From Lachnospiraceae bacterium (GTDB taxonomy: Bacteria > Bacillota > Clostridia > Lachnospirales > Lachnospiraceae), in NCBI GenBank assembly GCA_021201095.1, contig JAJQFO010000213.1, positions 1-37,006 of the forward strand: a DNA stretch of 37,006 bases. Direction: 5' to 3'. The first letter of the stretch is position 1; every line of letters starts with the position of its first letter. The position numbers and the translations under genes were made by a program. Shown here piece after piece: positions 8,275 to 11,384 of this stretch. A model generated the notes under the pieces. It searched no databases and was not told the origin of the DNA. It worked only from the letters and a program-made list of their open reading frames with translations.

Positions 8275-9096
8275 TCATTTAACCGGAATGTATTTCATCA
8301 GAAGCTCCTCCAGTTCGTCGTTCGAAATCGGTGTCGGCACGGAAAATCCGGTATTTTCCTCAATCACCCGCGCAAGAGAACGGTATTCGTCCGCCTGCGC
8401 GGACTCCGGCGCATATTCAATAACCGTTTTACGCTGAAGCTCTGCGTGCTGCACCAGATTATCGCGGGGGATAAAATAAATCATCTGCGTATTAATTTTT
8501 TCCGCAAATGCGGTCACAAGCTCTCTCTCCTGATCCACCATACGGGAATTACAGATGAGTCCGCCAAGCTTTGTCTTGCCGGTTTCCGCGTAGCGGCGTA
8601 TCCCTTTGCAGATATTGTTCGCCGCATACAGACTCATCATCTCACCCGAACAGACAATATAGATTTCTTTCGCCTTTCCTTCCCGGATCGGCATGGCAAA
8701 ACCGCCGCATACAACATCACCCAGAACATCATACAGGACATAATCCAGATCCGATGTATAGGCGCCCAGGCTTTCCAGCAGGTTGATGGCTGTGACGATC
8801 CCGCGTCCTGCGCAGCCGACTCCCGGCTCCGGGCCGCCGGATTCCACAGCTTTAATCCCCTGAAAACCTGTGTAGAGGAAATCTCCCTGCTCCACTTCAT
8901 CCTCGTCCTTTTCCCGCATCGTATCCAGCACAGTCCGGCGCGCATGACCGCCCAGAATCAGTCTCGTGGAATCCGCTTTAGGATCGCAGCCCACAATCAT
9001 CAGTTTTTTCTTATTTTCCGCCAGAGCGGCCGCCAGATTCTGTGATGTGGTAGATTTGCCGATGCCGCCCTTTCCATAAATAGCAATCTGTCTCAT
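8275..9096 (-). CDS. NifH-type nitrogenase iron protein homologue
   Basis: A 273-residue protein of exactly the NifH/BchL/CfbC family size. The P-loop [10 protein letters not shown] is at residues 7-16, then [16 protein letters not shown]. The cysteines that bridge the [4Fe-4S] cluster between two subunits are present at Cys95 (VGCAGRG) and Cys130 ([12 protein letters not shown]), and Arg98 matches the regulatory arginine of nitrogenase NifH. It should be an ATP-dependent one-electron donor to a component-1-type partner, and the two genes just upstream are such candidates. The start at [11 protein letters not shown] fits the family; GAGGAGGG lies about 11 nt upstream. The absence of visible nifB, nifE or nifN argues against true N2 fixation. 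MarD/CfbD-like or new-type substrates are possible. Confidence 0.9.
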
Positions 9097-9223
9097 AGAT
9101 TCATTTACCCTCCTCTGCTTACACTTTGAATGATACACGAGGCTTGCAGTCCTCAAGGTATCTGAAATAGCTGTACAAGAAGCTTTCGCTCCTTCCTGAG
9201 CCTTGAATGATGATGCTTTAAAC

Positions 9224-10750
9224 CTACAGTCCCTCTCGATCCAGCCATGCGTCCAGTGCACCGCCCGTCATGGGAAACGCATCCATTGATTCTACCGGAA
9301 ACATACCGCCTGTATTGGGAAGCCGCACCCAGCGTACCTCTTTCTTCACCAGCGGCTGCAAATCCCCATCCGCAAGTATCATGCGGACGGATGCCGTGTC
9401 AGCCTGCCTGGCAAAGTCATCCTCTCCGGTCAGTTTCCGATCGCCAGGCTCCATATATGCCTTGTCCATATCGTAAAAACTGAGCACCCGGATCTTTTCT
9501 TCTCCGCGGCGGCACAATTCCCGGCGGATGGCATTGGCCATAAACTGTTCCCCGACAATCAGGACTTCCGGTTCTGTATCCACATCATTTTCTTTTCTCA
9601 GATCTCCATTCTGGATCGCGGCAGACTCAGACAAACGGCACTCTTTCCTCTGTTTCTCTCCCGGACGTTCCGTATCAGTCATGGGAACAGCTTCTTTTAG
9701 TCTGATCTTCAGTGTCTCCGCAAAGTCCGCACCGAACGGTGCTCCTGCCAGATAGGGAATTCCATATTCGCTCTCCATATACTTGGCCAGGCGCAGACCG
9801 GATTCGTTTACTACCAGGTTCAGCGCTGCGGCGGATGCCAGCTTCAGATTTTCTGTCGTCTCTTTCCAGCCCCAGCGAGAAAGAATTTGAAATCCTTCCT
9901 GAGCAAGAAGCGTTTCCAGATCCGCAAAAGATTCCTTTGCCCAGTCAATCGTATTGGCGCCGAGAATATTCAAAGAGCCTGGAATCGTCGGACGCGATTT
10001 CAGAAAAAGGCGTCCCATTGCTTCCAGCGTGCAGCTGATCCCATACAGATAATCCTTTTCACCGTCAATCTTCACCGCCGCCGCGGGAAGGCCGCTCTGC
10101 ACAGAAGCGCCCACTCTATCCGTTTGGAGGCTGGCCGGTTCGTCCATGGAGGTTTGCTGCACAAAGGCCGAACCTTTCGTAATCTTTTCCGCCGCATATT
10201 CCAGATCAGAGCCAATCATAGACGCCGACGGTCCATAAGCAAGCAGAACAAAATTCGGGGAAAGCTGCTTCACACCCTTATCAAACGCAAGCATCACTTT
10301 CTTTTCCGTACCCGTAATAATATCCTCATTGCGGATGTCTGAATTGAGGACGCGCATTCCAGGCATCAGCCTTCCAAAGCCGCCCCGGCCGCCTCCATGT
10401 CCATGGTGGTCTTCCACTTCCGGCCGGCCTTCTCTGTCCGGACGACCTGTCATTTCTGCACGTTTGTCTCTATCCGGATGCCCAGTCATTTCTACATATT
10501 TGCCTCTGTCCAAATTGCCAGCTGCCCACGGATGACTGCCCACTTCAGAACTGTCATTCACCAACGGATGACCACCTCGCTCCGGCCTGTCCTCCATTCC
10601 CGGCCGTCCATGCCCGCCGCGCCCAAACATAAGCGGCTTATAGGTGCTCGAATCATCGATCAGTCCCAGTCCTTCTGTCTCATTCACGACTGCCTCAAAT
10701 CCCATCAGATCCGAAAGGCAGGGCGGCAGCACTTTCCACAATCGCTTCAT
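9224..10750 (-). CDS. Nitrogenase component-1-like protein with repetitive His/Gly/Arg insertion
   Basis: A 508-residue protein related to the NifD/NifK/CfbD superfamily. [20 protein letters not shown] (8-27) matches the N-terminal cluster-binding segment, and [19 protein letters not shown] followed by [16 protein letters not shown] matches the family's G-T-E-K-K helix and the (S)C-P-x-x-I-G-D-D region. Only Cys11 remains of the usual N-terminal cluster ligands: IDDSSTYKP stands where a GCTGN-type cysteine is expected, and YGPSAS lacks the later one. Residues 43-128 are a low-complexity insert rich in Gly, Arg, Asp, Pro and His with 12-residue repeats and a DHHGHGG cluster. The C-terminal part keeps [20 protein letters not shown], a Rossmann-like strand-helix. 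AAGGAG lies 12 nt before the ATG. It lies between the half-size partner and the nifH-like gene. Confidence 0.75.
10433..10504 (-). repeat. 36-bp in-frame tandem repeat inside the component-1-like gene
   Basis: Positions 10433-10468 and 10469-10504 are two 36-bp units sharing TCCGGA and GTCATTTCT at the same offsets, and a degenerate third unit begins at 10505. Each encodes 12 residues of the type DRxKxxEMTGxP. The repeat accounts for part of the insertion at residues 43-128 and looks like expansion by slippage or unequal crossing-over. Confidence 0.75.
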
Positions 10751-10843
10751 ATAATCAATGTCTCCTTTTCTTTTGTTTCATCGAATCCGCCTGTTAAACC
10801 AAACCGGCCGCGAATCCACGTCTCGTTTTCCCAAAACACGCTG

Positions 10844-11263
10844 CTACTCATGATCTCCAAACTCCAGATGTGCGTCCTCAAATACGGTAAGGTCAATGTC
10901 ATATTCCCGTTTTACCCGCTCCTTCAGCAGCTCACTGTCTGTTGAGAGAATGACCCACTGGCAGCCGCAGGCAATGACAAACCGCTTCTCTCCATGTTCC
11001 CTGGAAAGCTCCGCGAGCGCTTCCACGATCTGATTCAAATAGCGCCCGCTGGAAAAATCGCTCATCGACGGACAAAGCAGCGCTGCCCGCCCCTCACGCA
11101 TCAGCACCCCGATTCTCCGATATGGCTTATGGCGCAGGCAATTCACGGAACCCACAAAAAGCAGCATTCCCTTCTCCGACAATTCCTCCAGCAAATAGTC
11201 TCCTTTTCCTCCGCGGTGAGGCATACGCCCCTCGTCCATGTTTCTATTATTTTCTCTGTTCAT
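10844..11263 (-). CDS. Half-size nitrogenase component-1-like protein
   Basis: A 139-residue protein, first gene of the nitrogenase-like operon, with GGAGG 6-7 nt before its ATG. It matches a single N-terminal Rossmann domain of NifD/NifK-type proteins. LLFVGSVNCLRHKPYRR (34-50) resembles the segment with the first cluster cysteine, PSMSDFSSGRYLNQIVEAL (65-83) the di-x-x-G-x-x-x-L-x-x-x-I helix, and FVIACGCQWVILSTDSELL (95-113) the strand with a later cluster cysteine. Cysteines are at 42, 64, 99 and 101. Normal components are 400-500 residues with three such domains, so this is either a truncated gene or a genuinely minimal subunit. Its intact start, ribosome site and promoter favour a functional gene. 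It is complementary to the next protein, which lacks those cysteines. Confidence 0.68.
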   Translation of the reverse strand: MNRENNRNMDEGRMPHRGGKGDYLLEELSEKGMLLFVGSVNCLRHKPYRRIGVLMREGRAALLCPSMSDFSSGRYLNQIVEALAELSREHGEKRFVIACGCQWVILSTDSELLKERVKREYDIDLTVFEDAHLEFGDHE

Positions 11264-11355
11264 TTATTTCCTCCGTAGTATCATACCCTTTTTGACGCTC
11301 GAATCATATGATGATTATAGAAAGCCCGTATCAATTATTTAATTCACATGAGTTA

Positions 11356-11384
11356 ATCATATTCATTAATTATCTGTTTGTCAA
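11356..11384 (-). promoter_or_regulatory. Promoter of the nitrogenase-like operon
   Basis: On the reverse strand TTGACA (11379-11384), 17 nt and TATGAT (11356-11361), close to consensus. The spacer and downstream bases form AT-rich partial palindromes: TAATGAATATGATTA across the -10, and TAACTC-ATGT-GAATTA near the start site (11340-11355). They resemble a Fur-type 7-1-7 or similar operator, but that assignment is weak. The leader to the ATG at 11263 is about 85 nt. Confidence 0.7.

Follow-up and report, generated by a model that had tools for sequence, protein, structure and literature searches.

This study addressed a question raised by a three-gene operon in a Lachnospiraceae bacterium (assembly GCA_021201095.1, contig JAJQFO010000213.1), namely what kind of enzyme a nitrogenase-like system can form when one of its component-1 subunits is only 139 residues long. 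The window, that is, the whole stretch of 37,006 nucleotides that was analyzed, carries the operon on its minus strand in the order promoter, small gene (10844..11263), large gene (9224..10750), and nifH (8275..9096). A preliminary description had proposed an undescribed NifH-dependent reductase with an unusually small catalytic partner. The reduced, one-domain form on which that proposal rested is genuine and unusual, and purifying selection acts on it; the kind of system is not new, because pairs of component-1 genes with nifH beside ATP-binding cassette (ABC) importers are described in the accessible part of an earlier survey (Dos Santos et al. 2012, PMC3464626). We consider it likely, with a probability of roughly 0.7, that the operon encodes a group IV nitrogenase-like reductase that depends on NifH and is driven by ATP, in which component 1 is cut down to a one-domain subunit and a full subunit with an iron-sulfur (Fe-S) cluster at their interface.

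The nifH product matched PF00142 with an E-value of 1.5e-124 and reached the nitrogenase iron protein model TIGR01287 (447 bits against a cut-off of 394), and both a P-loop and the VVCGG motif were read in its sequence, confirming the intact NifH-type gene of the preliminary description. The frame opens with a GTG at 9261; the probable start is the ATG at 9096, which yields 273 residues and is preceded by an AGGAGG.

The small protein (139 aa) matched no Pfam family at E<=1. Nevertheless, the first 14 entries in the VIA-align ranking of its structural model were all the first domain of NifD/NifE/ChlN-like component-1 subunits. Aligned by hhalign with the full-size relative that carries the corresponding pair of cysteines (hereafter the two-cysteine subunit), it gave an E-value of 4.7e-5 and 30% over 94 columns. 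By homology and predicted fold, it corresponds to a NifD/NifE-like subunit reduced to its first domain. Phmmer matches to designed helical repeats and a weak NCBIfam match to a ribosome factor were taken as chance. Two cysteines of this domain, C42 and C101, were invariant in all 28 aligned rows.

The large protein (508 aa) had also been described as a reduced subunit, and this part of the description did not hold. PF00148 covered only residues 133-359 in the middle of the protein (E 1.9e-18), and none of the NCBIfam component-1 models reached its cut-off (15.6 bits for CfbD). Hhalign with the full-length, 393-aa component-1 subunit of locus L076 gave a probability of 99.6% and an E-value of 7.1e-24 over 372 columns, and because of this span the protein is a NifK/NifN-like subunit of full length and cannot be called reduced. 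Its extra length consists of a Gly/His/Arg-rich stretch (about residues 43-131), very variable in length and close to the place of the GC cysteine in full-size subunits, and of further variable stretches, among them a second one in the window's protein.

The results further revealed a shift in the cysteine pattern of the large subunit. The GC cysteine was found in 20/20 rows of full-size K/N-like subunits and in 0/9 rows of the reduced clade, whereas C11, within a PPC motif, was found in 9/9 reduced-clade rows and 0/20 full-size rows. The small-type and large-type cysteine alignments each held nine reduced-clade rows, from 15 loci in all; C11 was also present in L003, L004, L006, L008, L009 (as L098), and L002. 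The likely cluster site thereby has three conserved cysteines in both designs, placed differently, and the sequence pattern suggests C11 as a candidate cluster ligand.

Relatives of the small protein were sought by a pattern scan of genome contigs. Ten were identified, 86-97% identical over all 139 residues, each with a frame of exactly 139 aa and each followed by large and then nifH. Including the window's own genome, the trio was carried by 11 of the 47 genomes of this genus searched with PF00148; the large frame ranged from 438 to 524 aa where it was listed (that of L009 from an inner ATG) and was 508 aa in L002. In a second genus of the family, small was matched in five of nine genomes, four of which had small, large, and nifH together, with small frames of 169, 170, and 172 aa in the three listed. 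The C-terminal end of small, EFGDHE, was common to both genera. The short/long pair with its conserved cysteines thus recurs, and the three genes stay together elsewhere; recurrence of the pair with its cysteines was the outcome that the preliminary description had named as support. The fifth genome of the second genus, G448, is an exception, and its locus (L094) was left out of the alignments; the small frame there starts antisense to a neighboring gene, an arrangement that recombination, decay, or assembly error could produce.

In samples of the family and of the class, strong matches of the small protein were found in two of 397 family genomes (the window's own and G198), with two more at an E-value of about 0.007-0.008, and in two of 391 class genomes, with six weaker matches, one at 9.6e-7 to the first domain of a full-size subunit (G586) and five at 0.003-0.009. 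G422, a genome of the window's genus, carries a large subunit that is more divergent, together with a nifH of its own (L134:4548-5633; 34% and 78% identity, respectively); the contig end hides its upstream neighbor and the residues before N23. This subunit has a short Arg-rich stretch in place of the Gly/His-rich insert.

Purifying selection acts on all three genes. The ratio of nonsynonymous to synonymous substitutions (dN/dS, Nei-Gojobori) was 0.096 for small (55 pairs of 11 loci), 0.14 for large (36 pairs of nine loci, 418 codons), and 0.046 for nifH (21 pairs of seven loci). The large alignment and its dN/dS covered 9/11 loci (L002 and L009 left out), and the nifH value 7/11 (L007 and L009-L011 left out). 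The idea that small is a fragment of a normal gene was rejected on account of the equal length and common end of its orthologues and a dN/dS of about 0.10; orthologous loci in which the gene would be the broken end of a longer one were looked for and not found.

The genome that carries the operon contained a single PF00148 match in all, and a profile search returned no full-size two-cysteine subunit in it, so the possibility that the missing domains are encoded at another locus was rejected for this genome, the two-cysteine profile not having been run on G404, G414, and G415, three carriers that hold further PF00148 genes. A nifB gene over the cut-off was absent from 8/8 carriers searched, the window's genome included, with weak partial matches in 4/8. 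The earlier statement that no normal nif set is visible therefore stands, and a larger cluster derived from NifB by the known route is unlikely.

Full-size relatives of the system also occur in the family. The two-cysteine subunit was matched in 75/397 family genomes at E<=1e-10. Of these matches, 53 lay below 1e-40; the other 22, at about 6e-22 to 2e-11, may be ordinary nitrogenase-type subunits. The window's own genome and G198 were outside the 75, and two full-size relatives (L076 and L077) lie within the window's genus. Full-length homologues, which the preliminary description had named as grounds for refutation, thus exist in the wider family, whereas the orthologues are not full length. 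In the tree of K/N-like subunits, the reduced clade, G422 included, was recovered at 100/100 beside the full-size clade and not within it. Some full-size pairs (L116, L124, and L136) stand beside genes that we take to be HypE or HypF look-alikes. An association of nitrogenase-like relatives with hydrogenase maturation is noted in the accessible part of PMC3464626. The locus at L136:1661-8777 (G431, window's genus) contains two nifH genes in tandem, each with a component-1 pair.

The same composition was also found in a single chain. Two other genera of the family (G179, L149:5968-7608; G239, L150:5063-6850) and another family of the class (G737, L172:5919-7511) encode one protein of 530-595 aa that opens with a small-type domain and runs on into a full K/N-like subunit. 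The fused proteins keep the two cysteines of the small-type domain and the GC cysteine, and nifH and FecBCD genes adjoin all three. When the small rows were aligned by hhalign with the N-terminal 155-177 residues of two fusions, 95 columns were covered at 18% identity (E 2.6e-5, probability 74.8%); PF00148 starts only at residue 185 or 194 of those two proteins and misses the first domain, as it does with small. A fusion profile matched 38 of 321 class genomes, and only the match in G737 began before profile position 150. Reduced systems were further sought with a reduced-clade profile in 13 chosen genomes, seven of which had been picked for a PF00148 match without a two-cysteine match. The four loci inspected from these seven comprised the G179 and G239 fusions, a different full-size pair in G340, and, in G362, the end of a subunit that the start of the contig truncates; the seven also included G151, G214, and G328. 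Near the fusion loci L150 and L172 there is presumably a LysR-type regulator, and L172:1291-2724, next to the FecBCD genes, holds what we take to be an FmdE-family look-alike and a methyltransferase.

The combination of one domain with one full subunit thus occurs repeatedly. The tree of first domains joined the small proteins and the fused domains at 100/100, both on long branches, and the K/N-like subunit tree did not join them; because of the long branches and the disagreement of the second tree, we do not claim common descent for the split and fused forms. That the minimal component 1 combines a single cluster-binding domain with a full subunit, its cluster re-ligated through C11, and occurs split in two Lachnospiraceae genera and fused in three other genera, is a proposition to which we give even odds.

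On the basis of these findings, a mechanism can be proposed. The one-domain small protein would pair with the full-length NifK/NifN-like large subunit, and a simple Fe-S cluster, probably [4Fe-4S], would sit at their interface, held by C42 and C101 of small, C11 of large, and one non-cysteine ligand. NifH would dock at this cluster and feed it single electrons with ATP hydrolysis, and the cluster would hand them on to a substrate bound within large, the subunit that has all three domains. In relatives, the two domains dropped from small form part of the substrate pocket and the contacts to the second half. What the analysis shows directly is the gene content, its conservation, purifying selection, the homology and predicted fold of the small domain, the cysteine pattern, and the lack of a nifB over the cut-off; that the proteins form a complex, which cluster they bind and by which ligands, where NifH docks, and that the system is catalytic are inferred. 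As a first guess, made with low confidence from the FecBCD kind of importer where it is adjacent, the substrate could be a metal chelate or a macrocycle.

That importer (11471..15452, minus strand) lies upstream of the trio on the same strand and comprises two FecCD permeases (PF01032 twice), an ATPase (PF00005), and a substrate-binding protein (PF01497). It is accessory. FecBCD genes adjoin 7/11 loci of the window's genus and 3/3 fusion loci, and at 13/30 full-size loci an importer gene was located no more than 1.5 kb away; in L003 one permease is frame-broken, and in L008 a 38-residue remnant of the binding protein was found. The importer was rejected as a fixed part of the system since it is not conserved, and its adjacency hints at a metal chelate or a cofactor, no more. 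None of 12 neighbor proteins (seven from the window and five from the second genus) adjoined the trio in both genera. In 3/4 second-genus loci, a gene that we take to be a cysteine desulfidase look-alike is close by.

The control region was conserved as well. The promoter (11356..11384, minus strand) was read as a -35 element TTGACA at 11384-11379, a 17-bp spacer, and a -10 element TATGAT at 11361-11356, and the block was conserved among the 11 aligned upstream regions of orthologous loci; L010 has TATAAT at -10 and a spacer shorter by one base, and the aligned stretch of L011 begins only at -10. Plausible ribosome sites precede small, large, and nifH, as judged by eye. The preliminary description had listed promoter, ribosome sites, and intact nifH, and all were found. 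Overlapping the end of the -10 element is a palindrome, TTAACTCATGTGAATTAA (11339..11356, minus strand), a likely operator in the conserved upstream block, which was exact in 9/11 upstream regions and had a single change in L009 and in L010. Within the window, the pattern had two matches, both at one palindromic place, against 0.05 expected by chance.

Downstream of the trio, Pfam searches identified two MarR regulators and a MATE transporter. The MarR-family gene overlapping the nifH end (7742..8278, minus strand; PF12802, E 5.2e-12) has a counterpart after nifH in 11/11 loci of the window's genus, and it was not matched at the four second-genus loci. Within the window's genus, the MarR protein probably controls the operon by binding the conserved palindrome. 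Farther away, at 16107-25011, an alpha-L-rhamnosidase adjoins ABC importer genes and an alpha/beta hydrolase (Pfam) in what resembles an ordinary carbohydrate locus.

Several observations weigh against a working reductase of the proposed design. For the small protein, a Foldseek search by itself yielded nothing at E<=0.001 and listed KaiC ATPases at ranks 2-13, and the hhalign probabilities for the domain were moderate (68-75%). For the large protein, the AlphaFold2 model was unusable, with a predicted local distance difference test score (pLDDT) of 36.9, and the reduced clade, which no longer has the GC cysteine, may have lost the cluster as well. The G448 small frame (L094:5994-6395; 133 aa, near a contig end) matches only from residue 48 on and lacks the C42 region. 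The nifH frame is broken in L007/L097 and in G198 (L075), trios that are otherwise intact, which may reflect assembly error or decay, the carriers being partly metagenome assemblies. Three carriers (G404, G414, and G415) hold further PF00148 genes with E-values of 1e-52 to 1e-57. The importer is not intact beside 4/11 loci of the window's genus, nor beside any of the four second-genus loci, and no biochemistry was found. Finally, in the NifH tree (FastTree, midpoint root, topology only; L007 and G198 left out for their frame breaks), the window's NifH fell among Nif/Mar-type NifH and apart from the proteins that full-size importer-linked operons encode. One of those Nif/Mar-type proteins, 68.7% identical, comes from Treponema saccharophilum, where its gene adjoins a radical S-adenosylmethionine (SAM) gene and genes of sulfur metabolism. 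Furthermore, nifH is last in the reduced operon and precedes the component-1 pair in full-size operons; given this difference in order and the NifH grouping, the operon may be a mosaic.

The broken nifH frames, the defective frame in G448, and the variable inserts of the large genes would also be expected if the operon were a decaying remnant of a full-size nitrogenase-like operon, with the 139-aa gene a surviving stump and the cluster cysteine of large lost, and full-size relatives do occur in other genomes, two of them in the same genus. Nevertheless, the low dN/dS of all three genes, the C-terminal end of small common to both genera, the conserved promoter and palindrome, and the fusions of the same composition elsewhere make such decay quite improbable. 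One subunit retains a single domain out of three, and no fixed pathway enzyme was seen (0/12 neighbor queries beside the trio in both genera), which could instead point to an ATP-driven electron pump or activase without a substrate site of its own, in which NifH and small feed a separate acceptor and large is an adaptor. We regard this as improbable, because large keeps its whole length, where related enzymes bind substrate or cofactor, and the same neighbor test brought up no dedicated acceptor gene. The absence of a nifB over the cut-off in 8/8 carriers, hence of a known route to larger clusters, and of a client enzyme beside the trio in both genera argues that a NifEN-like scaffold, assembling a metal cluster or cofactor for the importer or a metalloenzyme rather than reducing a small molecule, is very improbable, although the importer adjoins 7/11 loci and such roles were suggested for importer-linked and hydrogenase-maturation-linked relatives by Dos Santos and colleagues (accessible part of PMC3464626). 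We therefore retain the NifH-dependent reductase with a cut-down component 1 as the preferred reading.

If the minimal component 1 with a re-ligated cluster, given even odds above, is true, two of the six domains of the component-1 heterodimer are dispensable while NifH-driven reduction, perhaps of an imported compound, is kept. A single-domain version would make it possible to test which parts are required to bind the cluster, to dock NifH, and to reduce a substrate. It offers, moreover, a small target within a large group that is uncharacterised, the two-cysteine subunit being matched below an E-value of 1e-40 in 53 of the 397 sampled family genomes; no function for the full-size two-cysteine subunit was found in the literature searched. 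A description of a one-domain component-1 subunit was likewise not found in that literature, with most subscription papers outside reach.

To our knowledge, the component-1 subunits of the characterised NifH-dependent enzymes all have three domains. Those enzymes use NifD and NifK homologues in a heterotetramer, CfbD alone forming a homodimer, according to the accessible part of PMC11423573. Compared with the Mo, V, and Fe nitrogenases, which have nifB and nifDKEN, the window's genome has one PF00148 match, and nifB was over the cut-off in 0/8 genomes. Dark-operative protochlorophyllide oxidoreductase (DPOR) and chlorophyllide oxidoreductase (COR) are set apart by the scores of NifH, which were under the cut-offs for BchL (216.8 of 345.15 bits) and BchX (201.7 of 331.2); in addition, the ChlN chain of DPOR has 425 aa against 139 aa for small, and no chlorophyll context was seen here. 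CfbCD also has a simplified component 1, made of a NifD homologue only (accessible part of PMC11423573), and NifH scored just under the CfbC cut-off (391 of 402 bits); however, CfbD is a homodimer (same source), and the large protein reached only 15.6 of the 268.4 bits of the CfbD cut-off. MarHDK and IsrHDK, the methylthio-alkane and isethionate reductases, resemble the operon in that the window's NifH shares its part of the tree with the Treponema saccharophilum gene beside sulfur genes. They differ in that their D and K homologues are accompanied by a B protein (accessible part of PMC11423573), whereas here the D/E-like partner has one domain; the nifB model was under its cut-off here, and no search with Mar- or Isr-specific B models was made.

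The fused proteins of G179, G239, and G737 share with the operon the first domain with its two cysteines, the full K/N-like subunit, and nifH, and differ in being a single chain, in keeping the GC cysteine, in having FecBCD beside all of them, and in the tree branch of their K/N-like part. By the broad definition of group IV, an iron protein of the NifH type next to a PF00148 protein other than Nif, Vnf/Anf, or Bch, the window's operon belongs there, with PF00142 and PF00148 in adjacent genes and no component-1 model over its cut-off for large. The accessible part of PMC3464626 mentions nifH-nifE fusions and single-subunit forms and contains no one-domain form. The importer-linked NifHEN-like systems of group IV have two separate full-size subunits, whereas the D/E-like partner here is one domain (139 aa in 11/11 loci; 169-172 aa in the second genus), and they keep the N/K-like cysteine, which is lost here, where C11 is new, nifH is last, and NifH groups with the Nif/Mar type. 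Co-location with ABC transporters is noted for them (accessible part of PMC3464626); here an importer adjoins 7/11 loci of the window's genus and 0/4 of the second. They share with the operon NifH and two component-1 homologues, and their two D/E-like cysteines, of the alphaC88/alphaC154 type, are matched by C42 and C101. The operon is thus a reduced variant of these known, uncharacterised group IV nitrogenase-like systems and not a new kind.

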